Source of the DNA: Ignavibacteriota bacterium
Lineage (GTDB): Bacteria > Bacteroidota > Ignavibacteria > UBA10030 > SZUA-254
Assembly (NCBI GenBank): GCA_016212665.1
Contig: JACREZ010000009.1
Location: forward strand, 1 to 64,000
Reading direction: 5' to 3'
DNA length: 64,000 bases
Part shown: one piece after another, positions 2,119-23,311 of the stretch
How positions within the stretch are numbered: position 1 is the first letter of the stretch
Layout: each line of letters starts with the position of its first letter
Translations under genes and position numbers: made by a program
Notes under the pieces: generated by a model
Seen by the model: only the letters and a program-made list of their open reading frames with translations
Told to the model about the DNA's origin: nothing
Database searches by the model: none

Positions 2119-2195
2119 TAGTCAATAGTCATTTGTCATTTGTAACCCCAAATCCGTAACCTGTAATCCGTAACCGGAAACAGAAAACTGGAAAC
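2119..2195. repeat. Degenerate 7-bp tandem repeat spacer
   Basis: The spacer is almost entirely built of 7-base steps: GTCATTT-like units near 2127-2145, then AATCCGT/AACCTGT and AACCGGA/AACAGAA units to about 2195. It belongs to the same degenerate heptamer theme seen at many other sites in the window. Confidence 0.7.
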
Positions 2196-4451: not shown

Positions 4452-4481
4452 TGTATAGTTCTTTCAGTTATTAAAATAAAT

Positions 4482-5272: not shown

Positions 5273-5302
5273 CTAACAATATTTTTAAAAATCTCAAGTG
5301 AA

Positions 5303-7081: not shown

Positions 7082-7161
7082 AATGATTTCGAATTGTCTA
7101 TGACTCGTAGAGCGGATTGTCAATTTCGGATTTATACTGTTGATGGTTTTTGAATGTTGAT

Positions 7162-8213: not shown

Positions 8214-8214
8214 A

Positions 8215-8410
8215 TTACTTATTATATTTTTTGACTATATCGTTCGCAATGTTTACAGCGGTAGCATTGTTCGAAGCCAAAAACAAATGATACATAAGAA
8301 CATTTCTGTTGTTTCTTAATTCATATGGTTTTTGAATCACGTTCAAACATCTCCTTCATTTCTTCACGATGCGTTTTTGATGAAATCGTATTCGCATTTT
8401 TTTCGTGTCC
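8215..8410 (-). pseudogene. tcmP: tcmP 3' remnant (three-Cys-motif partner), frameshifted
   Basis: Directly upstream of the Gp37/Gp68 gene, the minus strand encodes the typical end of TcmP: VIQKPYELRNNRN, then MYHLFLASNN and IANDIVKKYNK, with the stop 1 nt before the next ATG. Working back, the frame closes near 8358, but a neighbouring frame continues the homology (KTHREEMKEMFERDS, about 8345-8410). So at least one frameshift is present and the N-terminal two hundred or so residues are absent. It is therefore a decayed partner gene, leaving the Gp37/Gp68 protein without its companion. Confidence 0.6.
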
Positions 8411-8448
8411 TTACATAATCCAGATGTAAGCATGGCATGAAAAATATT

Positions 8449-8676
8449 TTATATTCTTCCTGTACCACCACAAGTTGGACAAGGTTTACCTGACGGTCCC
8501 AACATGTAAGATTCCCTAATTAATTCTTTTATAAGTTCTTTGATAATAGCTTCATCTGCTTCTTTATTAAATTGTTCAAAATTCAAACTTGAGGTTTTTT
8601 TCTCGTTTATTTGCCTATAAGAGCGTAACGTTAATGTTGTATCTCGAATTGATTTTTTAACTTCTTCAAAAGTCAT
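8449..8676 (-). CDS. 75-residue protein ending in a single DnaJ-type zinc knuckle
   Basis: The body is a charged helical stretch (FEEVKKSIRD..., AIIKELIKELIRES). The last residues read PCPTCGGTGRI, a CxxCxGxG motif as found in DnaJ zinc-finger repeats. A single CxxC knuckle cannot bind zinc alone, so dimerisation or a partner would be needed if it binds metal. No family is recognised. It lies on the minus strand between the next unknown gene and the tcmP remnant. Confidence 0.6.
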   Translation of the reverse strand: MTFEEVKKSIRDTTLTLRSYRQINEKKTSSLNFEQFNKEADEAIIKELIKELIRESYMLGPSGKPCPTCGGTGRI

Positions 8677-8703
8677 TAGAATTTCCTTTTAATGTTGATG
8701 TTT

Positions 8704-9153
8704 TTAAATAGTTGATTGGGTCACTTTATTAATATCCATATTCTGCATGTCCTGATATGCCCTAATAATTTCTGAGGTTAATAAATCACGACATTTCCTG
8801 TTTATTCCTGGAACTAATTTAGAAGAAGATTGTAATGTATCATAAATATCTTTATAGGGAATCCAGTAAGTTTGATATAAGATTTCCTTTTCTATAATGT
8901 CATGATTCCAAAGCGTCGCAGTTAATGCAAGTGCATTTACAGCTTTCACAACGTCAGGTGTAATAAGATTCGATATTTGAATTTCATTTACTCCACTCCA
9001 AGCCATGAAAAGATCAATCACACCTTGTCTTTTAAACATTTTTTTATTTGTGTTGTAAGATTTTCCAGCCATTATAAGTGCTATTGAGCTAAAAATCAAA
9101 CTAATAATAGCCGCCCCTGCTGAAACAGCTGAAATAAAATCTGCTGTACTCAT
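8704..9153 (-). CDS. Membrane-anchored protein of unknown function
   Basis: 149 residues with an N-terminal hydrophobic segment (about residues 8-29, AGAAIISLIFSSIALIMAG) followed by a polar region KSYNTNKKMFKRQG and an all-helical domain. The arrangement (one N-terminal membrane helix, then a short cytoplasmic helical domain) resembles DUF4760-type proteins of accessory regions, but the match is by general shape only. Together with the 75-residue gene and the Gp37/tcmP remains it forms an AT-rich small-gene island between two peptidase genes. Confidence 0.6.
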   Translation of the reverse strand: MSTADFISAVSAGAAIISLIFSSIALIMAGKSYNTNKKMFKRQGVIDLFMAWSGVNEIQISNLITPDVVKAVNALALTATLWNHDIIEKEILYQTYWIPYKDIYDTLQSSSKLVPGINRKCRDLLTSEIIRAYQDMQNMDINKVTQSTI

Positions 9154-9180
9154 TTTTCTAAAACCTTTAACAAAATTATT

Positions 9181-10617
9181 TTACTTGGAATAAAAATCAA
9201 TCATCCTCTCAATCGCCGCACTGCACACTGGGTCGAAATCAATAAGAGAAAGCGTGAACATGCGGCAATCAATTGCGGGACGATAGAAACCTTCGGAAGC
9301 GTAACCGGCGCCTTGAAACGCTCCGACTTTGCCCACGTACTTTGTCTCTTTAAGAATTTTCATTTCTGCATCGTACAATGGTTTTCGTTTTTCATAATAA
9401 TCAGAGGCAAGGCGATTGAGTTTTCCTCGTTCTCGTCCAAGACTATCGTATTGATGCTTTTCCCATGGAGTAGGAAGTGGTGTTTCGGCTTCCATCATAT
9501 TTTTCCACTTCATTGTTTTCGGATTCAACAACGCAGTGATGTTCGGTTCCCACGGCTCGACTCCTTTTTGATAAAAATCATTGTAGGCAACTTGCGACGA
9601 ATAATATTCATCACCAAGTCCGCCGAATGAATGACCGAACTCATGTACATAGACATAATCCATCTGCCACTCCATGCCTTCCTTGTCGGTTTTGGAAAAG
9701 CATGTTGCATACAAATTATAAATACCGCCGCCGCCGTAACGGTTGTCGTTGACAAGTATGTGAATAAAATCGTACGGTGCGGCGGAAGCAATATCACGAA
9801 GCGCACGATTCTCCATCGTCAGTACGTAGCGAGGCGTTTGGAACACATCGTAACTCGTACCGAGCGGAGTCTTTCTCCACACATTCGAGTCCGGTCGGTC
9901 AATTCCCGATTCTTCCGACTCGACTTCAACAATCCACACATTAAAATTATCTTTCCGTTTGCTGAACGGATACGTAGCAAACAATGCGTCAGTAAAGTGT
10001 TTGCAATCTTTTCTAAATTTTTCCATTTCGGCTTTCGTATAACCATCACCGAGAATAACAATATCCACTTTCTTTTCCGGCGCGCCGTTCTTCAATAACT
10101 GAGTAACTTTGAAATCCGGTGTGTGTTTCTCTTTGCTGATTTCTCTCGAAGTATTCGGGTCAATCGTCGTAGAGAAAATTTCATTAAACAACATCTGCTT
10201 ATTGCGGTGAGAAATCGTTAATTGAATTGCATTCTTTGGGTATGGCAATCGAACCGTCTCATGAAATGTGCGAGTCATCTTATCGGCTTCATCGGTTGTT
10301 TGCCATTCGTTGAAGATAGTCGAGTAGCCGCGTGAATAAATCATCGTCGTTGTAGCGACATCATACACGCGCACCAAAAATTCGCCGTAGTTCATGACAT
10401 CAAGAAGATTGGTTTTGCTTCCGGGCCATGCACCTTCTTCGTACACTTGGTCAAGACTAACACTCTCGGTTGATTTTGTTCCGGAATGAAAATAATCTAC
10501 ACGCAGTGTTTTATCTACAAAGAATTGGTCGAAATCTACTGACTGTGAAAAAGTAGTTGAGTAGATGAGTAGTTGAGATGTTAGTAGTAGAGTGGTGAGT
10601 AGTGAGTAGTTTTTCAT
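9181..10617 (-). CDS. Secreted M64 family (IgA-peptidase-like) zinc metallopeptidase
   Basis: 478 residues from the ATG at 10617; an upstream in-frame extension of 20 codons lacks leader character. The signal peptide ends near YSTTFSQ. Residues about 70-165 form an N-terminal beta domain. The catalytic domain starts at VDIVILGDGYTKAEMEKF and contains YVHEFGHSFGGLGDEYY, the HExGHxxxGLxDE zinc motif of peptidase family M64. The family includes an IgA protease, but most homologues in free-living Bacteroidota are general secreted proteases. The leader codons overlap a degenerate 7-bp repeat (about 10556-10614). Substrate unknown. Confidence 0.93.
   Translation of the reverse strand: MKNYSLLTTLLLTSQLLIYSTTFSQSVDFDQFFVDKTLRVDYFHSGTKSTESVSLDQVYEEGAWPGSKTNLLDVMNYGEFLVRVYDVATTTMIYSRGYSTIFNEWQTTDEADKMTRTFHETVRLPYPKNAIQLTISHRNKQMLFNEIFSTTIDPNTSREISKEKHTPDFKVTQLLKNGAPEKKVDIVILGDGYTKAEMEKFRKDCKHFTDALFATYPFSKRKDNFNVWIVEVESEESGIDRPDSNVWRKTPLGTSYDVFQTPRYVLTMENRALRDIASAAPYDFIHILVNDNRYGGGGIYNLYATCFSKTDKEGMEWQMDYVYVHEFGHSFGGLGDEYYSSQVAYNDFYQKGVEPWEPNITALLNPKTMKWKNMMEAETPLPTPWEKHQYDSLGRERGKLNRLASDYYEKRKPLYDAEMKILKETKYVGKVGAFQGAGYASEGFYRPAIDCRMFTLSLIDFDPVCSAAIERMIDFYSK
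10556..10614. repeat. Degenerate 7-bp repeat in the M64 leader
   Basis: GTAGATG/AGTAGTT/GAGATGT/TAGTAGT/AGAGTGG/TGAGTAG/TGAGTAG steps run through the signal-peptide codons (encoding SLLTTLLL, SQLLIYS on the minus strand). Confidence 0.65.
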
Positions 10618-10633
10618 TTTGAATTTTTCATTT

Positions 10634-10789
10634 TTAATTGAGAATAATTCCTTGTTGCCAGAGAACGAACAATACAATTGCCGTAATCACTGTCAGAAGG
10701 AAAATAAAAGCTAAAATCTTTGAGAGCATCCACAGCGCTTTCAGGGGAATCCATATTGGAGCGGTGAGGATTTTGAATAATGTTTTCAT
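10634..10789 (-). CDS. 51-residue membrane protein coupled to the PspC gene
   Basis: The ORF reads MKTLFKILTAPIWIP..., with one long hydrophobic helix (about residues 21-44, LSKILAFIFLLTVITAIVLFV) and ends GIILN. Its ATG overlaps the stop of the PspC gene as ATGA, a strong sign of translational coupling. It is probably a small inner-membrane partner of the PspC-domain protein. No family is recognised. Confidence 0.65.
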   Translation of the reverse strand: MKTLFKILTAPIWIPLKALWMLSKILAFIFLLTVITAIVLFVLWQQGIILN

Positions 10790-10989
10790 TGAACGTGCAA
10801 TTCAGATTTTTTGGGAATCAACCAGACGGCTAAAAGATAGCCAAGACCGAACGGGAAAAATCCGGTTCCGATAAGTAAGATGATAAAGATAATGCGTACA
10901 ACAACCGGGTCAATGTTGAACACTTCGCCGATGCCGCCACAAACACCGGCAAGTTTTTTATCTGTTTCTGAACGGTAGAGACGTTTCAT
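10786..10989 (-). CDS. PspC domain protein
   Basis: 67 residues consisting of almost nothing but a PspC domain: KRLYRSETDKKLAGVCGGIGEVFNIDP, then a membrane helix IIFIILLIGTGFFPFGLGYLLAVWLIP. PspC domains act in membrane-stress sensing and anchor stress responses to the inner membrane. Stand-alone PspC proteins of this size are common in Bacteroidota. The gene overlaps a 51-residue membrane ORF by 4 nt. Confidence 0.9.
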   Translation of the reverse strand: MKRLYRSETDKKLAGVCGGIGEVFNIDPVVVRIIFIILLIGTGFFPFGLGYLLAVWLIPKKSELHVQ

Positions 10990-11074
10990 AGTTCTTGATG
11001 CTTGATATTTGAAAATAGATTCTGTTACTGCCCTTTGAAAAACTTAGAAAGTCGAAGCACTTCACCAACTTGTG

Positions 11075-11266
11075 TCATGCTGTTTTTCCTGAGTAAAGAA
11101 CTGTATTCGCCTTCCTTGCTTCGTCTACTAACCGCATCATGTTTTGGAGAGCTAATACGCGTTCAGTTGGTGTTTGTTTAAGTATGGATTGATTCAACGT
11201 CAAATCAATCCCATATTCTTTCGCACGTTCGATTGCGGAACCTGATTGTGGTTTTTCTGTTTCCAT
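11075..11266 (-). CDS. Small helical protein, possible orphan toxin-antitoxin component
   Basis: 63 residues from the ATG at 11266 (METEKPQSG). The pattern AIERAKEYGIDLTL...TPTERVLALQNMMRLVDEAR resembles small proteins that usually precede a nucleotidyltransferase-fold gene in two-gene modules. No such gene follows here; only a 17-codon open stretch remains downstream, so the partner may have been lost. The assignment is by pattern and is tentative. Confidence 0.5.
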   Translation of the reverse strand: METEKPQSGSAIERAKEYGIDLTLNQSILKQTPTERVLALQNMMRLVDEARKANTVLYSGKTA

Positions 11267-11404
11267 ATTGCGCAGTAAATATAAAGAGAAAATCAATCTC
11301 AGAGAAACAAAAATTCTCTTTTGCTCACTTTTTCCTTATCTTTCTGCCGCTTGATGAAGATACGGATTGAAGATACAAATTTGATTATGCTTAGAACTAC
11401 TACC

Positions 11405-11458
11405 AACCGTCAACTGACAACTTACGAATCACTACTTACCACTCACAACTCACTAACA
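11405..11458. repeat. Degenerate 7-bp repeat just before ackA
   Basis: Heptamer steps AACTGAC, AACTTAC, GAATCAC, TACTTAC, CACTCAC, AACTCAC lead directly up to the ackA start codon, so the repeat occupies the position of the ribosome binding region. Confidence 0.7.
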
Positions 11459-11462
11459 GAAA

Positions 11463-12710
11463 ATGAATATTCTTGTATTAAACTGCGGCTCATCATCTCT
11501 TAAATTCCAGATTATTGAAACTGACCTTGACCTCATCGAAAAGAATGCTGACAAACGGCTTGCAAGCGGATTGCTTGAACGTGTCGTCGGCAACGCGCTC
11601 ATCACGTTGCAGGTTGAAGGACAACCAAAAGTTCGCGAAACCGCGCCGTTGCGCGACCATCGTTCGGCAATTGATTTTGTGTTGCGATGGATAATTTCTC
11701 CGAACTCAAAAATCAACAACATCAAATCACTCGGAGATATTCACGCTGTCGGACATCGTGTTGTGCATGGCGGCGAGAAGTTTACCAAGTCTGTTTTGAT
11801 TGATGAACAAGTGATTGAACAAATCGAAGACAACATCGAACTCGCTCCTCTTCATAATCCTGCAAACCTGAAAGGAATTTACGGCGCGAGAGAACTTCTT
11901 GGTTCAGGCGTTCCGCAAGTCGCTGTGTTTGATACTGCGTTTCACTCGACCATGCCTGAGACTTCGTACTTGTACGCGATTCCATATCAGATGTATCGTC
12001 GGCATCGTGTACGTCGTTATGGATTTCATGGAACGTCTCACCGATATGTCGCGTATCGGTATCGCCAATTGGTGAATATCGAACGGGAGAATGTGAATAT
12101 CATAACTGTTCATCTTGGCAACGGCTGTTCCGCCTGTGCGATTAAGAACGGCGAGTCGCTCGATACTTCAATGGGGCTCACGCCAATGGAAGGACTTGTT
12201 ATGGGAACCCGTAGCGGTGATGTTGACCCTTCAATTCTCGAATTCATCCATCACAAAGAAGGAATCGGGATGCGTGACATTGACACAATTCTCAACAAAC
12301 AATCGGGCTTGCTCGGCATTTCCGGTTTGACGAACGATATGCGAGAACTTCTCGCTGAAGAACAGGAAAAGAACGACCGCCGCGCACGTCTCGCTATTGA
12401 TATTTTCTGTATGCGTGTGAAGAAATATATCGGCGCGTACCTTGCGGAGATGGGTGGAGCGAATGCCATTGTCTTCACCGGCGGAATCGGAGAAAACAGC
12501 GCCGCTGTGCGTGAACGAATTTGCAACGGCTTAGAATGGATGGGTCTCTCTCTCGATAAAGAACGAAATGGAGAAAAAGTGAACGGACGAGAAGGAGAAA
12601 TATCCACGGAAGATTCACGATTGAAAGCATACGTCATTCCCACGAATGAGGAATTACTGATTGCACGGGATACAGTGAGAACGATAAAGGATGTGCCGAG
12701 AAGATGGTAG
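11463..12710 (+). CDS. ackA: Acetate kinase
   Basis: 415 residues, a little longer than the usual 400. AckA interconverts acetyl phosphate + ADP and acetate + ATP in the cytoplasm, the energy-yielding end of acetate fermentation. Diagnostic motifs are NCGSSSLKFQ at the N-terminus, HRVVHGGEKF, FDTAFHSTMP, YGFHGTSHRY, HLGNGCSACAI, DTSMGLTPMEGL, GTRSGDVDP and FTGGIGENSAAVR. No phosphotransacetylase gene is adjacent. It is transcribed divergently from the small gene at 11075-11266. Confidence 0.97.
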   Translation: MNILVLNCGSSSLKFQIIETDLDLIEKNADKRLASGLLERVVGNALITLQVEGQPKVRETAPLRDHRSAIDFVLRWIISPNSKINNIKSLGDIHAVGHRVVHGGEKFTKSVLIDEQVIEQIEDNIELAPLHNPANLKGIYGARELLGSGVPQVAVFDTAFHSTMPETSYLYAIPYQMYRRHRVRRYGFHGTSHRYVAYRYRQLVNIERENVNIITVHLGNGCSACAIKNGESLDTSMGLTPMEGLVMGTRSGDVDPSILEFIHHKEGIGMRDIDTILNKQSGLLGISGLTNDMRELLAEEQEKNDRRARLAIDIFCMRVKKYIGAYLAEMGGANAIVFTGGIGENSAAVRERICNGLEWMGLSLDKERNGEKVNGREGEISTEDSRLKAYVIPTNEELLIARDTVRTIKDVPRRW

Positions 12711-12809
12711 TTATTTGTTGACAGTTAACAGTTGTCGACACATGGTTAAAGATTTCATTTGCATTCATCCATAAAGAAATGTATTTTTTTGATGTGATAC
12801 GGTACAGAC

Positions 12810-13103
12810 GTGCAATATAATTTCGAATGGGACCCAAAGAAAGCCAAAGAAAATTATCAAAAACACAAAGTTACTTTCGAACGTGCATCTGAAATTTTTC
12901 TTGACCCATTGATGATTTCCATATTTGACGAGGAACATAGTGATATGGAAGACAGATGGATTACTATCGGTAAAGATCGAAACGATGTTAACCTTGTTGT
13001 CATTCATACATTTCGTGAAGGAACTTCACAAACATCAGGGATTCGAATTATCTCGGCACGAAAAGCAACAAAGCAAGAAACGAAACAATACATAAGTAGA
13101 TAA
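12810..13103 (+). CDS. brnT: BrnT family toxin
   Basis: 97 residues. FEWDPKKAKENYQKHKVTFERA, then FLDP, EDRWITIG and RIISARKATKQE form the full BrnT pattern, a RelE-like ribonuclease that arrests growth by cleaving RNA. A BrnA/CopG-like gene follows after 4 nt, the normal toxin-first order. Such operons are usually repressed by the BrnA-BrnT complex; no operator was resolved. Confidence 0.92.
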   Translation: MQYNFEWDPKKAKENYQKHKVTFERASEIFLDPLMISIFDEEHSDMEDRWITIGKDRNDVNLVVIHTFREGTSQTSGIRIISARKATKQETKQYISR

Positions 13104-13107
13104 GTTT

Positions 13108-13311
13108 ATGAAAAAAGAATACGATTTTAGTCAAGGGGTTCGAGGAAAATTTTACAAGGCAAATACTCGCCTCAATTTACCAGTGTATCTTGATGATGAT
13201 GTCCTCAAATTTGTTCGGGAATTTGCTAAACGTAAAAAAGTTGATACACAAACAATAGTCAACACACTTTTACGCAGTAATAAAGACATCGTGCTAACTT
13301 TAAAAGAGTGA
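13108..13311 (+). CDS. BrnA-like antitoxin
   Basis: 67 residues. KKEYDFSQGVRGKF is the typical N-terminus of antitoxins paired with BrnT. LNLPVYLDDDVLKFVREFAKRKKVDTQTIVNTLLR reads as a ribbon-helix-helix dimerisation/DNA-binding unit. It would neutralise BrnT and autoregulate the pair. It ends 4 nt before the exonuclease gene, so that gene may be co-transcribed. Confidence 0.85.
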   Translation: MKKEYDFSQGVRGKFYKANTRLNLPVYLDDDVLKFVREFAKRKKVDTQTIVNTLLRSNKDIVLTLKE

Positions 13312-13315
13312 ATAC

Positions 13316-14026
13316 TTGTTAGAATCCCTCAACATAGAAACCATTCTCTTCTTAGACATCGAAACCGTTCCGCAGTTTCCTGATTACGATTCTGTGCCGG
13401 AACACATCAAACCGTTGTGGAACAAGAAATCTGAATCGTTGATAAAAAATCCTGAAACGGAAACACCGAAAAGTATCTACCCACGAGCGGGAATTTATGC
13501 TGAGTTCGGAAAAGTGATTTGCATTTCGGTCGGGTATATCAATGGAAAAGAGTTTCGTGTGAAATCGTTTGCAAGTCATGATGAAGCGGAACTCCTTTCG
13601 GAATTTATTTCTCTTGTCAACAAACATTTCAACAGGAGCGAGAACCTGCTTTGCGCACACAACGGAAAAGAATTCGACTTCCCCTATCTTGCACGAAGAA
13701 TTCTCATCAACGGATTGAAACTTCCGAGAGCACTCGACACCGCAGGAAAAAAGCCGTGGGAAATTCAACATCTTGACACCATGGAATTGTGGAAATTCGG
13801 TGATTACAAAAATTTCACTTCGCTCAATCTCCTTGCCTCCATCTTCAACATCCCGACTCCGAAAGATGACATTGACGGAAGCAAGGTTTATGAAGTCTAT
13901 TGGCAGGAAAAAAATCTTGAACGCATAGTCACGTATTGCAACAAAGATGTGCTCACCGTTGCTCAGATTTTATTAAGAATGAGAGGCGAACCGTTGATTG
14001 AACCGGATAAGGTGTTTATTGTGTGA
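13316..14026 (+). CDS. Predicted 3'-5' exonuclease, DEDD/PolB-like ribonuclease H fold
   Basis: 236 residues starting at a TTG at 13316; no upstream ATG is available and the first motif lies at residue 14. Exo I motif FLDIETVP contains the DxE pair. Exo II is seen in LCAHNGKEFDFPYLARR, and Exo III near VTYCNKDVLTVAQILL (YxxxD). This matches the family of predicted 3'-5' exonucleases related to the proofreading domain of DNA polymerase B, common in Bacteroidota. It would act on DNA or RNA ends in the cytoplasm. The real start is the least certain element. Confidence 0.85.
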   Translation: MLESLNIETILFLDIETVPQFPDYDSVPEHIKPLWNKKSESLIKNPETETPKSIYPRAGIYAEFGKVICISVGYINGKEFRVKSFASHDEAELLSEFISLVNKHFNRSENLLCAHNGKEFDFPYLARRILINGLKLPRALDTAGKKPWEIQHLDTMELWKFGDYKNFTSLNLLASIFNIPTPKDDIDGSKVYEVYWQEKNLERIVTYCNKDVLTVAQILLRMRGEPLIEPDKVFIV

Positions 14027-14029
14027 TCT

Positions 14030-14712
14030 ATGAAATTAAAACTATTTCCCCTGCTCATTATTATCATCTTTCTCGCTTGCTCTGATGATGATAATCCTAT
14101 CGGTAGTACACAACAATCGCTGAGGCTTTTTGGAAAAGTTGTTGACAGTCTTGGTGTACCAATTGATAGCGTTGGAGTTCATTACTTGTTTGAATATAAA
14201 TCAGGAAAATTTCTTAAATCCCCTTCTTCACCTCCTTCTACACAAATCCGCTATTCCCTACCTCATCGCTCTTATGTAAGAATCGATATCTTTCGTTGGT
14301 TTACGCGCGATTCAATCAGTTCATTTATTAATGATACACTCAATGCCGGGATACATACTTTTACCGTTGACGTTTCAACAATGACCAATGGTTTTTACAT
14401 TTATCGAGTCATAACTAATAATTTGGTTCAGGAAAAATATTTTGCTTTGCTCAATACGAACATTTCTGAAGTGATACAGCTGAACCTTTAGCTGTTACCG
14501 ATACATCGGGAAGTTTTTCACTTCCGTATGCCCTTTTAGGTTTCGGAGTTCCCTTGTTTCGCGCGCTTGATAATCCAACTGTCGTTGATACAATGTATAT
14601 TTCCCGTACCATCGAACTTGTGCTTCATAAAACAGGATACAGTACGAAAGTTCAATCAATAACAATTGACACTTCTACAAATATGTTTCGAACTTTTGTT
14701 CTTGAGCATTAA
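14030..14712 (+). pseudogene. Frameshifted lipoprotein with carboxypeptidase-regulatory-like domain
   Basis: The first frame (14030-14491) encodes a lipoprotein signal peptide (FLACSDDDNP), a beta domain LFGKVVDSLGVPIDSVGV and NGFYIYRVITNN...YFALLNTN. It ends abruptly at 14489. From about 14470 a different frame continues the same kind of protein: SDTAEPLAVTDTSGSFSLPY, then FGVPLF and LVLHKTGYSTKVQSITID, ending at 14712. The second part is a normal carboxypeptidase-regulatory-like strand set. A single frameshift around 14464-14475 explains both halves. Either the gene is broken or the sequence carries an indel error here. Confidence 0.7.
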
Positions 14713-14837
14713 ATTTTTGAAACAAGTACCTTTCCAAAAACGAATCTGACTCACACCACATTTACTATGTAAAGCCTTTTTCTTCAAAGTAGAACTTCTT
14801 ATATTCACCCATCAACTTCGGGGAAGATTGATGCAAT

Positions 14838-15743
14838 GTGCATCAATCAGTAATGTTCAAATTACCGTGCAAGACATTGAAAGAATCTCATTCACTTTTT
14901 TTGATTTTCCTGTTGTTGATTGCCGTGTTGGCTGTTATTTCTCTCAGTCTTCGTGGCTGGGAATATTATTTGACGCCACTTGAAGCGCGTCCGTTTCATT
15001 CCGAGTACTCTACGCTCAAACCTTCCGGTTCGTACAGTCATGGTCTTGGTATCATCGGGACATTGATGGTCATCGTCGGTGTCTCGACCTATTCAACCCG
15101 TAAGCGAATTCGTTCGCTGTGGAATGTAGGCAAGTTAAGCCGGTGGTTGGAATTTCATATTTTCCTCTGTTTACTCGGTCCCATCCTCGTTCTCTATCAT
15201 ACAACATTCAAAGCGGGCGGCATTGCGGCAATCAGTTTGTGGACAATGCTTTCTGTTGCCACAAGCGGAATAATCGGGCGATTTCTTTACACGCTTGTTC
15301 CGAGAAATCTCAATGGCAACGAATTGACGTTGGAAGAAATCAATGCGCAATTAAATGAACTCGGTTCTTCACTTGAATCAAGCACAATCGGGAAACAGAT
15401 TGTTCAGATGATTGACGATGCGTTTGCAAACATCAGCAAACCGAAAAGCTTGGGTGAAACATTTTCCACGTTTATGCACTTGCAAACAATCAAATCGCAT
15501 GTAAAACATAACATTCACAAGTTGATTGTTGAAAGCAACCTTTCACACGACATTGCAAAGCAAATGACTGCATCTTCCAACGCTCGTGCCTCACTCTTTC
15601 AAAAGTCATTGGTGCTTTCACAAGTCGAGCGAATCTTTTTCTATTGGCATGCGATTCATCTTCCGTTCACGATTATTATGTTCATCACGCTTGCCGCGCA
15701 TGTTGTGGTTGTTGTGATGCTTGGCTACAGGTGGATATTGTGA
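14838..15743 (+). CDS. Cytochrome-b-like inner-membrane diheme protein
   Basis: 301 residues from a GTG at 14838 (an ATG at 14853 is the alternative). About four to five membrane helices: residues 20-38, 69-83, 104-124, 130-151 and 270-296. Two helices each hold a histidine pair with 13 residues between them: His107/His121 and His274/His288, the spacing used by the b hemes of cytochrome b/b6. A soluble stretch (155-262) lies between. It is the first gene of the multiheme operon, so the inferred role is to take electrons from quinol and pass them to the periplasmic cytochromes. It lacks overall resemblance to canonical bc1 cytochrome b, so substrate is inference. Confidence 0.75.
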   Translation: MHQSVMFKLPCKTLKESHSLFLIFLLLIAVLAVISLSLRGWEYYLTPLEARPFHSEYSTLKPSGSYSHGLGIIGTLMVIVGVSTYSTRKRIRSLWNVGKLSRWLEFHIFLCLLGPILVLYHTTFKAGGIAAISLWTMLSVATSGIIGRFLYTLVPRNLNGNELTLEEINAQLNELGSSLESSTIGKQIVQMIDDAFANISKPKSLGETFSTFMHLQTIKSHVKHNIHKLIVESNLSHDIAKQMTASSNARASLFQKSLVLSQVERIFFYWHAIHLPFTIIMFITLAAHVVVVVMLGYRWIL

Positions 15744-15767
15744 GATTACAGACAATAAAGAACAGGA

Positions 15768-15864
15768 GTCATTCCGAACGAAGTGAGGAATCTCGTGTCT
15801 CAATTTTACATCAAACCACACGTGAGAGATTCTTCACCCCGCTGAAGCGGGGATTCAGAATGAC
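15768..15864. repeat. Palindromic interspersed repeat, copy 1
   Basis: Starts GTCATTCCGAACG and ends GGATTCAGAATGAC, giving inverted ends GTCATTC/GAATGAC. An internal hairpin CCCCGCTGAAGCGGGG sits near the right end. The terminal ATGAC supplies the ATG used as start codon of the following cytochrome gene. Confidence 0.8.
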
Positions 15865-17485
15865 ACTAAACTATATGTTGTCGTATATCCTCTTTTGTTT
15901 TGCCTTGCCATTACCATCATTCGCTCAATTCTCCCCTGGCGAACTTTCACGAGCTCATCAAAAATTGGAAGGAACAGATAATTGCACGCAGTGTCACGAA
16001 GTCGGACAAACAATTAGCGGTGCGAAGTGTTTGGCGTGTCATACGGAAATTAAAAAACAGTTTGATAACAAACGGGGATTTCATTTTTCAGAATCAGGCA
16101 AGCAATGCGTTGATTGCCATAAAGACCATCTTGGTCGCGATGCAAAGACGATGATGTTTGATGAACAATCATTTGTTCATACAAAAAGTGGATTTGCTTT
16201 GAGTGGAAAACATAGCAACGTCAAATGCGAACAATGCCATGCGACAAAATATATCAAAGATGAAGATGTGAAAAAGAGATTGGCTGAGTTTCCCCACAAA
16301 ACTTTTTTGGGTTTGAATCAGTCATGCAGTTCTTGTCATGAAGATACTCACAAAGGAAGATTCAAGGATGAATGTTCATCCTGTCATACTCCTGCCAGAT
16401 GGAAACCTGCATCAAAGTTTAATCATGCAACTCTTGCGTTCAAGTTGGAAGGCGAACATGCAAAAGTGGAATGTTCGAAATGTCACTCTTCCCTTTCTTC
16501 AAAAAAGAATTTGGTTGATTTCATGACAAAGATTTTTTTTGATTGCACTCCCTGCCATGCAACTCCGCACGGTGAAAAGTTTTCAGGAAAAGAGTGTAAA
16601 TCGTGCCACAGCACGCAGGGCTGGCGAGCGACGATGAAAAAAACTTTTGACCATAAGTTGACAGCGTTTAACCTTGTGGGACTTCATGCAACAGTCAAAT
16701 GCGAGAAGTGTCATCAACCGAACAAAAAGAAAGCAAAGTCGCTCCGGCTTGCGCATGAGCGTTGCACCGATTGTCATTCGGATAAACACAACGGTGAGTT
16801 TCTTGCACGATATAAGAACGACTGCAAAGTCTGTCACGATGAAAACGGATTCAAGCCATCAACGTTCACTTTAGCACAACATAACGAGAGCACGTTCAAA
16901 CTTTCCGGCGCACACACGGCAACTATGTGTTCTTCCTGTCATGTGAAAAAAGAAACAATGCAACTTCGTTTTCATTTTGAAAATCAACGATGCGAATCGT
17001 GCCACAACGACCCGCACAGGGGCGAGTTCAAGAATGTTATGCTTAATGATGGTTGTGCGAAATGTCATTCGACAGAGCAGTGGAAGTCAGTTTCATTTGA
17101 CCACTCAACAACGAAGTTTCGTTTAGAAGGAAAACATGCACGTGTATTATGTTCTGATTGCCACAAACAACTTGGCAAAGAAAATCAAACAAAGGAATTT
17201 GGGAAACTGAAAACAGAATGTGAATCGTGTCATCAAGACATTCATCAAAAACAATTTTTTTCCGGCGAAGGAACGAATTGCGGTTCTTGCCACAAGCCTG
17301 ATAGCTGGAAGATGCGCGTCTTTAACCATGAAACACAAAGTTCATTTTCATTGAAAGGTGCACACATGAAAACTGAGTGTCGTTCATGTCATCGAGTTGA
17401 AGAATCGGGCGGAGTAAAGTTTGTTCGATTTAAACCTTTGGCTTCTCAGTGCGAATCATGTCACCAGAAAAGTAATGAGCGATGA
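15860..17485 (+). CDS. 20-heme c-type cytochrome, periplasmic
   Basis: 541 residues from the ATG at 15860, chosen because a signal peptide (MLSYILFCFALPLPSFAQ) follows at once; the frame is open further upstream only through the repeat and the preceding gene. Twenty CxxCH heme-attachment motifs are spread over the whole chain, first CTQCH, last CESCH. Additional histidines recur in fixed patterns (KFNHAT, LEGEHAK, DIHQ), suggesting bis-histidine ligation as in cytochrome c3/c7-type repeats. It would ferry electrons through the periplasm. It is in an operon with the cytochrome-b-like gene upstream and overlaps the 37-heme gene downstream by 4 nt (ATGA). Confidence 0.93.
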   Translation: MTLNYMLSYILFCFALPLPSFAQFSPGELSRAHQKLEGTDNCTQCHEVGQTISGAKCLACHTEIKKQFDNKRGFHFSESGKQCVDCHKDHLGRDAKTMMFDEQSFVHTKSGFALSGKHSNVKCEQCHATKYIKDEDVKKRLAEFPHKTFLGLNQSCSSCHEDTHKGRFKDECSSCHTPARWKPASKFNHATLAFKLEGEHAKVECSKCHSSLSSKKNLVDFMTKIFFDCTPCHATPHGEKFSGKECKSCHSTQGWRATMKKTFDHKLTAFNLVGLHATVKCEKCHQPNKKKAKSLRLAHERCTDCHSDKHNGEFLARYKNDCKVCHDENGFKPSTFTLAQHNESTFKLSGAHTATMCSSCHVKKETMQLRFHFENQRCESCHNDPHRGEFKNVMLNDGCAKCHSTEQWKSVSFDHSTTKFRLEGKHARVLCSDCHKQLGKENQTKEFGKLKTECESCHQDIHQKQFFSGEGTNCGSCHKPDSWKMRVFNHETQSSFSLKGAHMKTECRSCHRVEESGGVKFVRFKPLASQCESCHQKSNER

Positions 17486-20328
17486 ATCTGAATTCTTACC
17501 TACTCTCCACTATCCGTCATGCTGAATTCATTTCAGCATCTATCAACGCTCGTTTATGGATCCCGAAACAAGTTCGGGATGACATAATACTATTTTTATT
17601 GATATTTTTACCAGCGTCTGCCTCTTCACAACAATCACCACATGGAAAGATTGCATTGAAATGCGAAACGTGTCACTCGACTGAGTCATGGAAGATGCGG
17701 ACAGATGCTTCGTTTAATCACAACTCAACCGGATTTGCACTTGAAGGGAAACACAAATTTACTTCGTGCCAATCGTGTCATCAGAAATTTGAGTTTACCA
17801 AAGTAACAAGCGAATGCGCGTCTTGTCATACAGATGTTCACAAATCGGAATTGGGAACAAATTGTCTTCGTTGCCACTCGAATGATTTGTGGCTTATTCC
17901 CGATATGAAAGAGAAACATCAGCAAACTCGATTTCCGCTTATCGGCAGTCATGCTTTTGTAACGTGCGAAGCGTGTCACGAACGGACTTCTGCAAATCGT
18001 TTTTCCGGCACACCGCTTGAGTGTATTGCGTGCCATCAAAAAGAATATCAGGCAACGACAACTCCAAGTCACGAGCAAGTAAAATTTCCGGTGGATTGCA
18101 ATCGTTGTCATCAGGTAACATCAACATGGTCGAGTGGATTTAACCACAATCGTACAACATTTCCGTTGACGGGCGCACATCAAACAGCAATTTGTTCACA
18201 GTGTCATGTAGATAATAAATTCCTCAACCTCCCTTCTGATTGTTACAGTTGTCATGCTCAACATTTTGCCGATGCACAATCACCGAATCATGTAGCGGCT
18301 GAATTGAATCACGATTGCAAATTGTGTCACACCACAAGCGTTTGGAAACCTTCTACTTTTGAACACAGCGCAACAGCGTTTCCACTTACAGGAAAACATT
18401 TCACCACTGAATGTCAAGAGTGCCACAAGAATGGAGATTACAATCTGACATATTCTAACTGCGTGGAGTGTCATCAAACAGATTTTCAACAGGCTTCAAA
18501 TCCGAATCACCAGGCGAATGGTTTCAATCAGCATTGTCAATCATGTCACACAACAACTAATTGGCAAACAACAACGTTCGACCATACAACAACAACATTT
18601 GCTTTGACTGGCGCACATCAAGTTGTTCTTTGTTCATCGTGCCACACGAACAATAATTTTCAATTGACATATACGAATTGTTATCAATGCCATCAGGCGG
18701 ATTTTCAGCAAGTAACAACGCCAAATCACGTGGCCGGAAATTTTAATCAAACATGTCAGCCATGCCATTCAACCACGGCATGGAAACCGGCAACGTTCAA
18801 TCATGACGGAACAAGTTTTCCGCTGACTGGACGACATGCGTACTCTCAGTGTCAATCATGCCATGAGAATGGGAATTATAATTTGACTTATTCAAATTGC
18901 GTACAGTGTCATCAGACAGATTTTCAGCAGGCGACAAACCCGAATCATCAAACAAGCAGTTTCAATGAGAATTGCGTTTCTTGTCACTCGACGGATGGAT
19001 GGAGTCCGGCTTCGTTTGACCACACTTCAACTGCATTCGCTTTGACAGGAAGCCATGTTTCAACTCTTTGCTCATCATGTCATATAAACAACAATTACCA
19101 ACTGACGTATTCGAACTGTTACCAATGTCATCAGACAGATTATCAACAAGTAACAGAACCGAATCATGTGAATGGAGTTTTTATTTACACATGCGAGCCG
19201 TGTCATTCTACTTCTGTGTGGACTCCTTCGTTGTTTAGTCACAGCAATACAAATTTTGCCCTTTCAGGTCAGCACATTACGACCCTTTGTCAGTCATGTC
19301 ATCAAAGTGGAAATTATAACATCACGTACACGGATTGTTATCAGTGTCATCAAACAGATTATACTCAGGCAACAAATCCTGACCATCAATCAAATAATTT
19401 TAACCATGATTGTACGTCGTGTCATTCTACAGCAGGTTGGTCGCCTGCGTCGTTCGACCATGCTAACACTGATTTCCCGTTGACAGGACAACATATCTCA
19501 ACTGATTGTCAGTCGTGCCACGTGAATGGTAACTACAATCTCACTTACACTGATTGCTACCAATGCCACCAGACAGAGTTTGATGGAACAACGAATCCGA
19601 ATCATGTCGCGGGAAATTATCATCATGATTGTACAGAATGTCATACAACATCAGGTTGGAGTCCCGCTTCGTTTGACCATACACCAACGGCATTTCCTCT
19701 TTCCGGAAGTCATGTTGCAACGCTGTGCGTCTCATGTCATACGAATGACAATTATCAGTTGACGTATTCAAACTGCTACGTTTGCCATCAAACAGATTAT
19801 CAAACACCGACGAATCCGAATCATTCAACAAATGCGTTTGATTATGTATGCCAGCCTTGTCATACAACAACTGCGTGGTCACCATCAGTGTTTAATCATA
19901 GCACAACTGCGTTGCCACTAACAGGGGCGCATACAAGCACAACATGCATCTCGTGTCATACAAATGGAAATTATCAATTGACATACAACGATTGCTATCC
20001 TTGTCATCAAACAGATTATCAGCAACCGACAAATCCGAATCACGTGCAGGCAAACTTTGAACACGATTGTTCGCCCTGTCATACAACCTCAGTGTGGACT
20101 CCCTCGACGCTGAATCATGATACGAGATATTTTAAGATTAAGTCAGGTAAACATCGCGGCAAATGGACGCTATGTACTGAGTGCCATACAACACCGACAA
20201 ACTACGGAACATTCTCCTGCATTGATTGCCACGAACACAATCGAACCGATACCGATAGAGACCATCGTGAAGTTAGTGGTTACTCGTATGTTAGTTCAGA
20301 ATGTTACCGATGCCACAGGAATGATTAA
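17482..20328 (+). CDS. 37-heme c-type cytochrome with repeated three-heme modules
   Basis: 948 residues carrying 37 CxxCH motifs, about one heme per 26 residues. From residue about 200 the chain is made of roughly ten copies of a module of about 70 residues: W.P..F.H, then F.LTG.H, C.SCH, N.NY.LTY..C, Y.CHQTDYQ, TNPNH, C..CH. Each module has three CxxCH motifs and three extra conserved histidines (F-x-H, TG-x-H, NPNH), which suggests one distal His ligand per heme. A 23-residue stretch (12-34) interrupts the leader and is encoded by a mobile palindrome; without it the leader is a normal signal peptide ending PASASSQQ. The protein probably forms a long heme wire in the periplasm or at the cell surface. 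Confidence 0.93.
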   Translation: MNLNSYLLSTIRHAEFISASINARLWIPKQVRDDIILFLLIFLPASASSQQSPHGKIALKCETCHSTESWKMRTDASFNHNSTGFALEGKHKFTSCQSCHQKFEFTKVTSECASCHTDVHKSELGTNCLRCHSNDLWLIPDMKEKHQQTRFPLIGSHAFVTCEACHERTSANRFSGTPLECIACHQKEYQATTTPSHEQVKFPVDCNRCHQVTSTWSSGFNHNRTTFPLTGAHQTAICSQCHVDNKFLNLPSDCYSCHAQHFADAQSPNHVAAELNHDCKLCHTTSVWKPSTFEHSATAFPLTGKHFTTECQECHKNGDYNLTYSNCVECHQTDFQQASNPNHQANGFNQHCQSCHTTTNWQTTTFDHTTTTFALTGAHQVVLCSSCHTNNNFQLTYTNCYQCHQADFQQVTTPNHVAGNFNQTCQPCHSTTAWKPATFNHDGTSFPLTGRHAYSQCQSCHENGNYNLTYSNCVQCHQTDFQQATNPNHQTSSFNENCVSCHSTDGWSPASFDHTSTAFALTGSHVSTLCSSCHINNNYQLTYSNCYQCHQTDYQQVTEPNHVNGVFIYTCEPCHSTSVWTPSLFSHSNTNFALSGQHITTLCQSCHQSGNYNITYTDCYQCHQTDYTQATNPDHQSNNFNHDCTSCHSTAGWSPASFDHANTDFPLTGQHISTDCQSCHVNGNYNLTYTDCYQCHQTEFDGTTNPNHVAGNYHHDCTECHTTSGWSPASFDHTPTAFPLSGSHVATLCVSCHTNDNYQLTYSNCYVCHQTDYQTPTNPNHSTNAFDYVCQPCHTTTAWSPSVFNHSTTALPLTGAHTSTTCISCHTNGNYQLTYNDCYPCHQTDYQQPTNPNHVQANFEHDCSPCHTTSVWTPSTLNHDTRYFKIKSGKHRGKWTLCTECHTTPTNYGTFSCIDCHEHNRTDTDRDHREVSGYSYVSSECYRCHRND
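17515..17584. repeat. Palindromic interspersed repeat, copy 2, inside a signal peptide
   Basis: Begins CGTCATGCTGAATTC and ends TTCGGGATGAC, with internal hairpins GCTGAATTCATTTCAGC and TCCCGAAACAAGTTCGGGA. It adds 23 codons in frame (translation RHAEFISASI...PKQVRDD) to the leader of the 37-heme cytochrome. Confidence 0.85.
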
Positions 20329-20378
20329 GGATTTCGGATTGACGATTTTTTCATTGACGATTGAATCATTGCCCTAAC

Positions 20379-21989
20379 ATGAAATTATTTAGTATTGTAT
20401 TTATTTGCCTGATGCTACTCGCTTCCGTTGGGGTTTCACAAACAACGCAAGTTCGAGGAACGATTACCTACATCGTCAAGGATGCAGTCTATACTTCACT
20501 TGGTCGTAATGCCGGCGTGCAAGATTCAAGTCTTCTGTTTGTGGTATCAAAAAATGATACGGTTGCGACTCTCATGGTTTTTGCCACAAGTTCTAAATCT
20601 TCGGTTTGTAATATTCAATCAACCAAAAGGAAATTGGTTATTGGCGATTCGCTTGTTGCTGATGTTGAACTTCCTAAACAAAAGGAAGAGCAACAACCAC
20701 CAATCTCAAAACGGGAAATTGTTAAACAAGATACTACAGTTGAGATTGCAGAAGTTGAAAAACTAAAACTACCCACATCTCAAAACTCACATCTCATATC
20801 GCTTCAAGGACGCATTTCACTCCAATACTCTTCTTCCGTCCAATCAAATGCGAACCTGATTTTCACTCAACCCGGAATTGTTCTCAATCTTCGAGGCGCG
20901 TTCAATAACTCACCCTTCAAGTTTGATGTGTATGCAAACTTCCGTTCGAGAGTTATGGGAACGCAAAGTCCGTTTTCATCAAACAGCACAAGCCAAACCC
21001 GGCTCTATCGGTTTTCGGTTGATTATGATGATAGTGTTTATCGTTTTTCCGTAGGAAGAATTATTCCACAACACGCGCCCTCGGTTGGATACATTGATGG
21101 CGTTTTGATTTCGAGAAAGTTCAATAATTTTATTGTCGGATTGACAGGTGGATTTGAACCAAGTTATTCTCAACGAGGAATCTCGACTGAATTCAAAAAG
21201 ATTTCTCTGTTCGGAAATTTTCAATCGGATGGTGTGTTGCGTTCCAATATCAATGTTTCTTATGCACGAACGTACTTTCATTCACAACTTGACCGCGAAG
21301 TTGTGAGCGCTATGTTGTTTAGTTCCATCACAAACAACATTTCCCTCACTGCACAATCGGAGATTGACATGAGAACAAAATCAGGAAACAACTTTGAACT
21401 CGCTCCACGTTTGACAAATCTTTTTTCAAACATCAATTATCGTTTCTCTCCCCTCTTCACTTTCGGGCTCGGATATAATTCCTACCGCTCGATGTATTCC
21501 TATTCATCGGTTCAGTTGATTCCTGATTCCATGTTCGATAGAACTTCACGCAACAATCTTAACGTGAATCTTAACTTCTATTTCCCTTCGGGTATTTCTT
21601 TCTACAATACATATTCACCCCGTTCATCAACGGAAGGTTTCGGGAGTGAGTTCTCAAACTCTTCATCACTATCAGTTTCAAATATATTCAATCAGGGAAT
21701 ATCGGCACGAACTTTATTCACTATCAATTCAACTCTTTTAAGCAGAACGCTCGGCATTGGCGGTTCCTTGCAAAAAACATTCAGCAATGTATTTGATGTC
21801 AGCGCACGCGTTCAAACATATTCTCACAACATCAAGCAACTCGATGAAACCCGACGCACACAATCGTTCGGGATTGATTGCATGACGCTCTTTCTTGAAC
21901 GGCTGACTGTTTGGGGAAGCATTGAGTGGCTGAGCGGCTCAAACACGAACGGCTATAATCTTTTTGCCGATGTGAGTTGGAGATTCTGA
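20379..21989 (+). CDS. Outer-membrane beta-barrel protein of the cytochrome operon
   Basis: 536 residues from the ATG at 20379, where the signal peptide (MKLFSIVFICLMLLASVGVSQ) begins. Residues about 22-105 form a small soluble beta domain (VRGTITYIVKDAVYTSLGRNAGV), then a proline/glutamate linker. From residue about 140 there are many amphipathic strands with alternating hydrophobic residues (ISLQGRISLQYSSSV, YRFSVGRIIP, NSYRSMYSYSS), ending WRF, typical of outer-membrane barrels with a C-terminal aromatic. By position it may be the porin that holds or passes the multiheme cytochromes, as in porin-cytochrome conduits. No sequence relation to MtrB is claimed. Its stop overlaps the next start (TGATG). 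Confidence 0.75.
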   Translation: MKLFSIVFICLMLLASVGVSQTTQVRGTITYIVKDAVYTSLGRNAGVQDSSLLFVVSKNDTVATLMVFATSSKSSVCNIQSTKRKLVIGDSLVADVELPKQKEEQQPPISKREIVKQDTTVEIAEVEKLKLPTSQNSHLISLQGRISLQYSSSVQSNANLIFTQPGIVLNLRGAFNNSPFKFDVYANFRSRVMGTQSPFSSNSTSQTRLYRFSVDYDDSVYRFSVGRIIPQHAPSVGYIDGVLISRKFNNFIVGLTGGFEPSYSQRGISTEFKKISLFGNFQSDGVLRSNINVSYARTYFHSQLDREVVSAMLFSSITNNISLTAQSEIDMRTKSGNNFELAPRLTNLFSNINYRFSPLFTFGLGYNSYRSMYSYSSVQLIPDSMFDRTSRNNLNVNLNFYFPSGISFYNTYSPRSSTEGFGSEFSNSSSLSVSNIFNQGISARTLFTINSTLLSRTLGIGGSLQKTFSNVFDVSARVQTYSHNIKQLDETRRTQSFGIDCMTLFLERLTVWGSIEWLSGSNTNGYNLFADVSWRF

Positions 21990-23311
21990 TGGAATCCCTC
22001 ATCACGCTCCTCATCTTCTTAGTTCTCCTTCTACTCGTCGGTGTTCCGTATTGGAGAAGAACGATACTGCATCGTAAGCAGGCAGAAGAGGCACGGGAGA
22101 AAAATGTAAAAGTCGGATTGCACGAACCCGTCACGCTTCATCCACGCATTGATGTCATGACTTGTATTGGTTGCGGAAGTTGCGTCCGTGCTTGTCCCGA
22201 AGATGTGCTTGGAATTGTTGATGGCAGAGCGGCGGTTGTTCACGGAGCGCGTTGTATCGGTCATTCGCTTTGTGCAGATGCTTGTCCCGTGAATGGAATT
22301 ACCATGACGTTCGGTACGCCGAAGCAAGGAATGGAAATACCATTCTACGATGAAAACTTTATGACCAACATTGCAGGCTTATACATCGTCGGCGAACTTG
22401 GAGGCGTAGGGTTAATCCGCAACGCGTTTGAACAAGCCAAAAAAGCAATCGAACATATTGCAACCTCCAACACTCCATCACTCCAAAACTCCAACACAAC
22501 GTTTGATGTTGCAATCATCGGTGCTGGTCCCGCCGGAATCTCTGCCGCTCTTTCCGCAAAAGAAAAAGAACTCACTCACATCGTATTAGAACAAGACGAT
22601 TTCGGCGGCTCCGTCCTTCATTATCCGAGACAGAAACTCGTTCTTACTTCTCCGGTTGAATTACCGCTCTATGGCAAGTTGAAATATTCTGAAATCTCCA
22701 AGGAGGATTTGCTTGTGCTGTTCAATTCTCTTATTAAGAATCATGAGTTGAACATTCAACCAAAACAAAAAGTAGAAGCAATCACAAAAGAAGAAACATT
22801 CTTTACCGTCAGAACATCAACACAAACAATCACTGCAAGAAATGTTGTGCTTGCGCTCGGACGAAGAGGCAGTCCCCGCAAACTTGGTGTGCCGGGAGAA
22901 CAACTTCCGAAAGTCTATTACAAATTGATTGAAGCCGAGTCATACAACAACAAACATTTGTTGGTAGTCGGCGGAGGCGATAGCGCAGTTGAAGCGGCGA
23001 TTGGTTTGGCGCGGCAAAAGGGAAATACCGTTACACTCAGTTACCGGCGAGAATCATTTGTTCGATTGAAAGAAAAGAACGAGCAACGAATTCAGGAGAT
23101 GATTCATGCCGGGAAGATACATGCGCTCTTCAACTCTGAAGTCATGGAGATTACTTCTGAATCAGCAATCATCAAAGAACAAAGCAATCTCATTCATAAC
23201 ATCAAGAACGATGTTGTCTTCATCTTTGCCGGAGGAGAATTGCCCGCCGAGTTCTTAAAAAAGATTGGCGTTCAATTACGAACCAAAGAATCAACTATCC
23301 TCGCGGCGTGA
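21989..23311 (+). CDS. Membrane-anchored 4Fe-4S ferredoxin / FAD-NAD(P) oxidoreductase
   Basis: 440 residues from the ATG at 21989, which overlaps the previous stop (TGATG). Residues 1-22 are a membrane helix. Residues 55-105 form a two-cluster ferredoxin domain: Cys59, 62, 65 and 69 (CIGCGSCVRACP) for one cluster, and Cys89, His92, Cys95 and Cys99 (CIGHSLCADACP) for the second, where the usual second Cys is His. After a linker of octamer-repeat origin (158-171) comes a thioredoxin-reductase-like FAD domain (IIGAGPAGISA, 176-186) and an NAD(P) site (VVGGGDSAVEAA). It likely exchanges electrons between NAD(P)H, FeS and the cytochromes at the inner membrane; direction is unknown. Confidence 0.88.
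   Translation: MESLITLLIFLVLLLLVGVPYWRRTILHRKQAEEAREKNVKVGLHEPVTLHPRIDVMTCIGCGSCVRACPEDVLGIVDGRAAVVHGARCIGHSLCADACPVNGITMTFGTPKQGMEIPFYDENFMTNIAGLYIVGELGGVGLIRNAFEQAKKAIEHIATSNTPSLQNSNTTFDVAIIGAGPAGISAALSAKEKELTHIVLEQDDFGGSVLHYPRQKLVLTSPVELPLYGKLKYSEISKEDLLVLFNSLIKNHELNIQPKQKVEAITKEETFFTVRTSTQTITARNVVLALGRRGSPRKLGVPGEQLPKVYYKLIEAESYNNKHLLVVGGGDSAVEAAIGLARQKGNTVTLSYRRESFVRLKEKNEQRIQEMIHAGKIHALFNSEVMEITSESAIIKEQSNLIHNIKNDVVFIFAGGELPAEFLKKIGVQLRTKESTILAA

Follow-up and report, generated by a model that had tools for sequence, protein, structure and literature searches.

The closest described counterpart of the system dealt with here is PCC3, a proposed porin-cytochrome complex (PCC) made up of a porin, two very large multiheme cytochromes (MHCs) and an inner-membrane protein (IMP) of ~300 aa, described from Alpha-, Beta- and Gammaproteobacteria, Fe(II) oxidisers included (He et al. 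2017, PMC5566968). The IMP of PCC3 and PCC4 carries the signature WX3HX13H / SGXXG / WX3HX13H, likened to ferric reductase domains and cytochrome b; in PCC3 it has five transmembrane (TM) helices with the motifs on TM3, TM4 and TM5, quinone is proposed as its partner and the porin has up to 42 transmembrane strands (PMC5566968). The second cluster of Sideroxydans lithotrophicus ES-1 consists of an IMP (Slit_1446), two cytochromes with 24 and 28 hemes (Slit_1447 and Slit_1448) and a porin (Slit_1449) (PMC12016527, PMC8788666), and the four components are also listed for Gallionellaceae (PMC10734462) and Sideroxydans CL21 (PMC12442390), and for PCC3 itself the extracellular location of the larger MHC and the electron transfer function are putative. 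For Bacteroidetes, unnamed novel PCCs are mentioned in a lake study (PMC6344600), and for Ignavibacteria OmbB-like PCCs and one MtrB-like PCC are known (PMC7399161). Here we analyse a cluster of five genes, all on the + strand within positions 14838-23311 of a 64,000-nucleotide stretch (the window) on contig 9 (JACREZ010000009.1) of an Ignavibacteriota bacterium (GCA_016212665.1), whose genome of 3.91 Mb comprises 45 contigs and is 99.65% complete.

By content, order and IMP motifs, genes 1-4, coding for an IMP, two MHCs and a predicted porin, are classified as PCC3-type. The first-pass annotation of the window had recognised a conduit of the porin-cytochrome kind, which agrees with this assignment; its statement that no system with exactly this set had been described is not supported for four of the five genes, which correspond to the published PCC3 set and follow one another as in ES-1. 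The remaining gene codes for a membrane-anchored ferredoxin-flavoprotein; no flavin or iron-sulfur (FeS) subunit of PCC3 was found in the literature searched, the figures and supplementary tables of He et al. lying outside its scope. We read the cluster as a PCC3-type trans-envelope conduit with an added cytoplasmic input module, which would be fed by NAD(P)H or ferredoxin and run outward, and put the probability of this reading at about 0.5.

Part of the evidence for this reading is the linkage between gene 5 and the IMP. Searches covered 294 genomes of the class and 395 of the phylum and score few candidates per genome. Gene 1 was matched in 78 of the 294 class genomes, which we sorted into 70 strong, 3 partial and 5 weak matches. 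The gene 5 profile was found in all 70 genomes with a strong IMP; the matches were near full-length except in G231 and G281, where they end at positions 393 and 406 of 440, and in G267, where the gene lies in two pieces on two contigs. Gene 5 occurred without a strong IMP in three class genomes (G105, where gene 1 is cut; G234, an assembly of 410 contigs; and G144, 71% complete), and 221 genomes had neither. It was absent from two of the three genomes with a partial gene 1 (G125 and G053). The loci of these two (L146 and L147) are cluster remnants with a truncated or stop-interrupted IMP, and gene 5 stays below threshold in both genomes. In the phylum search gene 1 was matched in 44 of 395 genomes, 12 of them outside the class; there gene 5 accompanied all eight strong matches (in G580 over positions 2-265 only) and none of the four weak ones.

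Gene neighbourhoods were compared for 76 loci with a strong gene 1, after dropping L032, which represents the same place as L037; seven of the 70 class genomes are outside this set (G022, G078, G120, G124, G251, G266 and G280). All five genes were present in 57 neighbourhoods, 16 were cut by a contig end and three appeared incomplete at first. Two of the latter (L131 and L073) proved complete on longer stretches, the IMP of L073 lying ~15 kb from the remaining genes, so that all five genes are found in 59 of 60 uncut loci; the exception, L146, is degenerate, with a truncated IMP and a barrel fragment. The set thus recurs in Ignavibacteria and beyond, which excludes a peculiarity of a single genome. 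Chance as the origin of the set was rejected on this recurrence, and an assembly artefact on the agreement of 59 loci. Three gene orders were seen, in two of which gene 5 adjoins the IMP. Pairwise distances of genes 1, 2, 4 and 5 correlate with r of 0.83-0.93 in the 27 loci where all four were recovered, r being 0.93 for barrel against IMP distances. The PCC3-type conduit is frequent in Ignavibacteria and extends to other Bacteroidota; in Emticicia oligotrophica DSM 17448 the set is located on plasmid pEMTOL02, beside a gene with CcsA and ResB domains. In 19 loci a ~200-aa TPR protein is encoded after the IMP (e.g., L042:10453-11073), but not in the window; it shows a sub-threshold match to the CcmH/CycH TPR family (28.2 vs 42 bits).

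Table 1 Features of the five-gene cluster in the window
Feature	Position	Strand	Description
Gene 1	14838..15743	+	PCC3-type IMP, putative two-heme cytochrome b, five hydrophobic segments; start uncertain
WX3HX13H motif, TM3 of gene 1	15144..15200	+	aa 103-121
SGXXG motif, TM4 of gene 1	15264..15278	+	aa 143-147
WX3HX13H motif, TM5 of gene 1	15645..15701	+	aa 270-288
Gene 2	15860..17485	+	20-heme c-type cytochrome, 541 aa from ATG 15860, putative periplasmic MHC
Gene 3	17482..20328	+	37-heme c-type cytochrome, 948 aa, putative extracellular MHC
Nine successive 73-aa triheme units of gene 3	18193..20163	+	CXXCH spacing 32/16/25
Gene 4	20379..21989	+	Putative outer-membrane beta-barrel, 536 aa, C-terminal F
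Gene 5	21989..23311	+	Membrane-anchored ferredoxin + FAD/NAD(P) oxidoreductase, 440 aa
Hydrophobic N-terminal anchor of gene 5	21989..22045	+	aa 1-19
Ferredoxin domain of gene 5	22151..22324	+	~aa 55-112; motif I C-x2-C-x2-C-x3-CP, motif II C-x2-H-x2-C-x3-CP
Gene 5 segment resembling C-terminal FAD part of disulfide oxidoreductases	22325..22483	+	aa 113-165; weak resemblance, possible circular permutation
YpdA/thioredoxin-reductase-like FAD/NAD(P) domain of gene 5	22502..23296	+	aa 172-436, cysteine-free

The gene 5 product bears an anchor, a ferredoxin and an FAD/NAD(P) domain (Table 1), as the first-pass annotation had proposed. Its best relative in the Protein Data Bank (PDB) is the YpdA-family reductase 7a7b; the FAD/NAD(P) domain of the window protein has no cysteine and therefore no redox CXXC. 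At the second position of ferredoxin motif II all 65 gene 5 proteins have His instead of Cys. In motif I the corresponding residue is less uniform (36 Cys, 23 Ser, 3 Thr and 1 Val, with 2 not read) and varies with gene order: it is Cys in 31 of 32 proteins encoded after the barrel and in five of five encoded divergently, and Ser, Thr or Val in all 26 encoded after the IMP. These sub-types probably track clades. The segment that follows the ferredoxin gave only chance-level matches when searched singly; a profile built from 18 such segments picked out, where this was expected, glutathione reductase (E 0.006) and a soluble transhydrogenase (E 0.08). With this segment moved behind the FAD core, the Pyr_redox_2 match extended from profile position 252 to 290 of 291 and scored 101.2 bits, vs 100.9 in native order and 97.4 with a shuffled tail, while with other profiles the score rose little or fell. 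A circularly permuted FAD domain is offered as a suggestion only, to which the rearrangement control lends weak support. A protein resembling gene 5 is encoded on a Pseudoalteromonas plasmid with no cytochrome alongside.

The gene 1 product (301 aa) has five hydropathy segments at a threshold of 1.5, with the motifs WLEFHIFLCLLGPILVLYH, SGIIG and WHAIHLPFTIIMFITLAAH in this order. Among 76 homologues scoring above 200 bits both HX13H pairs are conserved in 74 and SGXXG in all; the two failing proteins stem from one truncated and one interrupted gene. The Trp of the motif is retained in 55 of 76 homologues on TM3 and in 74 of 76 on TM5. Gene 1 had been called cytochrome-b-like, and the two b-heme-like motifs speak for this, the matches to Pfam and NCBIfam being insignificant (E 0.07); the ferric reductase transmembrane domain (PF01794) was not matched (Pfam, E 0.1), and the IMP profile gave four weak matches to solved structures (E 0.22-0.53), all unrelated helical chains. 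We infer from the motifs that gene 1 holds two b hemes, which would be ligated by the HX13H pairs on TM3 and TM5.

Genes 2 and 3 contain exactly 20 and 37 CXXCH motifs, in line with the 57 c hemes predicted at first pass, and no CX3CH or CX4CH; composition-shuffled controls (1000 each) reached a maximum of 3 and 4 CXXCH, respectively. With signal lengths assumed, this amounts to 26.0 and 24.3 residues per heme. Searches of solved structures gave no match to gene 3 (threshold 1e-10) or to gene 2 (threshold 1e-6). Across the 57 complete clusters gene 2 is the stable and gene 3 the variable cytochrome: the first MHC is a 20-heme protein in 50 of them, has 23 hemes in five and 19 in one, and is split into 5 + 15 in one, and the largest further MHC has between 10 and 66 hemes, with a median of 31. 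More than two MHC open reading frames (ORFs) lie upstream of the barrel in 10 of the 57. The heme number of the further MHC equals 1 modulo 3 in 45 of the 57 clusters vs 19 expected, a comparison that takes no account of relatedness among the clusters. The 73-aa triheme units in the window's gene 3 share a mean identity of 53%, and Pfam Cytochrome_C7 is matched in 11 stretches of the protein. Taken together, the heme numbers and the repeated units suggest that the cytochrome wire seems to grow by whole triheme units. Tandem Repeats Finder reported no array within the cytochrome genes; the repeat is therefore evident in the protein and not as a DNA array.

The beta-barrel proposed for gene 4 finds its signs in a signal peptide, a C-terminal F and membership in a family that has 60 ORFs across the loci compared, most with similar ends; no family of Pfam (E 0.01) or NCBIfam (E 0.1) matched it. 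Its fit to the cytochromes is a prediction.

In the mechanism we propose, NAD(P)H or reduced ferredoxin would donate electrons to the FAD and FeS clusters of the anchored gene 5 protein, from which they would pass, perhaps without quinone, to the two b hemes of gene 1. The 20-heme cytochrome would then take them across the periplasm and hand them, through or at the barrel, to the 37-heme cytochrome, and this to an acceptor outside the cell, for instance Fe(III), humics, an electrode or another cell. Electrons moving outward from NAD(P)H travel downhill in redox potential and along the membrane potential, and we prefer outward flow for this reason. A cytoplasmic NAD(P)H/ferredoxin port is favoured by the linkage of genes 1 and 5, together with remote IMP-like genes that lie beside flavin/FeS proteins: in the Alteromonas macleodii plasmid locus L095 such a gene stands next to an FNR-type 2Fe-2S protein, with genes for a 7-heme cytochrome and NiFe hydrogenase nearby, and in L088, from a class genome, an IMP-like gene and a 10-heme cytochrome lie between a cNMP-binding/4Fe-4S (Fer4) protein and FHA-domain proteins, one of which has Pyr_redox and 2Fe-2S domains. 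The source had first been given as quinol or, in brackets, NAD(P)H; it is the bracketed alternative that gains, because a flavin/FeS gene is so tightly linked to the IMP. The host genome also has cytochrome c assembly genes, which we count in favour of the conduit. More tentatively, the loci could represent a quinone-independent branch of extracellular electron transfer across Bacteroidota, in which the ferredoxin-FAD protein with its invariant C-x2-H-x2-C-x3-C motif (its FAD domain perhaps permuted) couples cytoplasmic NAD(P)H/ferredoxin directly to a two-heme b protein and a triheme-lengthened surface wire; as part of the same possible reading, it would in effect be an NADPH oxidase with its acceptor outside the cell. 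Given the unusual ligands of the clusters, the gene 5 flavin might even bifurcate electrons, which is speculation.

Several observations weigh against a conduit fed through gene 5. The Fisher test of gene 1/gene 5 co-occurrence (p 1e-64) ignores shared ancestry. In 27 of the 65 gene 5 proteins motif I carries Ser, Thr or Val, which may mean that one of their clusters is changed or missing. For the IMP, He et al. propose quinone as partner and compare its motifs to quinone-active cytochrome b (PMC5566968), and the conduit may work without gene 5, because accounts of four-gene proteobacterial PCC3 clusters name no such gene. With these points goes the view that the IMP exchanges electrons with the quinone pool, gene 5 being accessory as redox partner of another reaction or as a maturation or repair factor. 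Such a role sits poorly with gene 5 accompanying every strong IMP in and outside the class (70/70 and 8/8) and adjoining it in two of three gene orders, and we consider it rather doubtful. The cytochromes themselves might also be periplasmic electron stores or carriers, with the barrel serving another role and no conduit across the outer membrane: a lipobox is absent in 126 of 130 large multiheme ORFs scanned, extracellular placement of the gene 3 product is a prediction, gene 4 belongs to no Pfam or NCBIfam family, and its AlphaFold model (from 2 sequences, predicted local distance difference test, pLDDT, of 27.6) is of too low confidence for barrel size. The AlphaFold model of gene 1 (from 4 sequences, pLDDT 58.5) is of too low confidence for heme b sites. 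The barrel-family gene, however, stands alongside the cytochromes in 59 of 60 uncut loci and its distances track those of the IMP (r 0.93), which makes this explanation highly improbable.

The chain could also work as an uptake route, drawing electrons from Fe(II), minerals, an electrode or a partner cell and delivering them either to the quinone pool or to gene 5. Passing electrons from Fe(II) to NAD(P) or ferredoxin, and doing so against the membrane potential, is a steep energetic climb. PCC3 was discovered in Fe(II) oxidisers (PMC5566968), and the IMP of PCC3 copy 2 was significantly up in Sideroxydans CL21 cells able to oxidise Fe(II), which fits inward flow and counts against our direction (PMC12442390); in ES-1 both PCC3 clusters were down on Fe(II), so that the evidence from these two strains is mixed. 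Discussion of Ignavibacteria in the literature centres on iron reduction and life on anodes. Incoming electrons could be consumed in the host by the products of its nitrate reductase, NrfHA-like and haem-copper oxidase genes; these and the cytochrome c assembly genes leave the direction of flow unsettled. On balance we regard uptake as unlikely, and retain outward flow from NAD(P)H or ferredoxin as the preferred reading.

The host has a second cytochrome-rich cluster (G000:C19; L165, L166), with ORFs of 13, 19, 6, 11, 8, 4, 10 and 9 CXXCH beside a Rieske protein, cytochrome b, an acyl-CoA-dehydrogenase-like protein and a cytochrome c assembly gene. Nitrate reductase subunits and the NrfHA-like pair are located on G000:C41 and G000:C34 (L167, L168), the haem-copper oxidase on C45. 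Among remote relatives, plasmid loci of Alteromonas, Methylophaga, Glaciecola and Salinimonas (L095-L098) have successive genes for an IMP-like protein, a 7-heme cytochrome and a 2Fe-2S flavoprotein, with the barrel family absent; NiFe hydrogenase genes come next in those of Alteromonas and Glaciecola. L088 is possibly a signalling-linked relative of the conduit.

The genes had been taken as consecutive and overlapping; consecutive they are, but overlap is confined to two junctions out of four (ATGA at 17482-17485 between genes 2 and 3, TGATG at 21987-21991 between genes 4 and 5), the others being gaps of 116 nt (genes 1-2) and 50 nt (genes 3-4). Start candidates of gene 1 are GTG 14838, ATG 14853 and TTG 14877. 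For gene 2, the start given in the ORF list (15644) was set mechanically, and ATG 15860 is the likelier one because the stretch from the end of gene 1 to 15931 cannot be aligned with L031, a close relative whose gene 1 is 93% identical; alignment fails from gene 1 up to the mature portion of gene 2. Near the start of gene 3, the window has 78 nt more than L031. Two palindrome-rich elements resembling dispersed repeats lie at 15770-15862, at the gene 1/2 junction, and at 17514-17586, in the 5' part of gene 3, where the signal-peptide region is extended by ~26 codons relative to L031; each matches one other site of the window in part (29-31 nt, 86-87%). At 12810-13280 a BrnT-family toxin gene is followed by a short ORF from ~13109, by position probably the antitoxin.

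Gene 5 is a concrete candidate for the electron source of PCC3 at the inner membrane; if this is true, NAD(P)H or ferredoxin could supply the electrons that a cell exports, with no quinone involved. As a marker set, the five genes can serve to detect the conduit in bacteria of sediments, groundwater and bioreactors.

Among described systems, OmbB-OmaB-OmcB and MtrCAB share with this locus, in principle, a barrel that spans the outer membrane together with multiheme cytochromes, but contain 8 + 12 or 10 + 10 hemes in place of 20 and 37. Membership in the former was rejected by heme numbers alone, the 8- and 12-heme pattern being absent, and membership in MtrAB/MtoAB on scores against TIGR03508 (DmsE/MtrA), where gene 2 reaches 45.5 bits and gene 3 reaches 33.7 vs a cut-off of 192.2, gene 4 lacking a match to the MtrB/PioB family. 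The FAD/NAD(P) domain of gene 5 resembles YpdA/Bdr and thioredoxin reductases (PDB 7a7b, 7a76, 3ab1), whereas the anchor, the ferredoxin and the cysteine-free FAD/NAD(P) domain set gene 5 apart; as a YpdA bacillithiol disulfide reductase it was rejected at 183.3 bits vs the NCBIfam cut-off of 339.9. NADPH oxidases and ferric reductases combine cytoplasmic NAD(P)H, a flavin, two b hemes on two HX13H pairs and an outside acceptor. The locus would follow the same principle as these proteins, which He et al. also name, but its flavin module is of another fold family, is separately encoded and would pass electrons to c hemes. PCC4 and other IMP-linked clusters of He et al. (2017) have the same IMP motifs, some with Fe-S or other redox genes, and PCC4 differs in its porin with three periplasmic MHCs and no extracellular one. 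PCC3 itself comes closest: beyond gene content, order and IMP motifs, the heme numbers (medians of 34 and 21 there, 37 and 20 here) and the few residues per heme agree, whereas gene 5 is added here and the phylum is Bacteroidota in place of Proteobacteria. A set of the kind of genes 1-4 is thus already described, and what appears to be added here is gene 5 as a candidate subunit and the presence of a PCC3-type set in another phylum.

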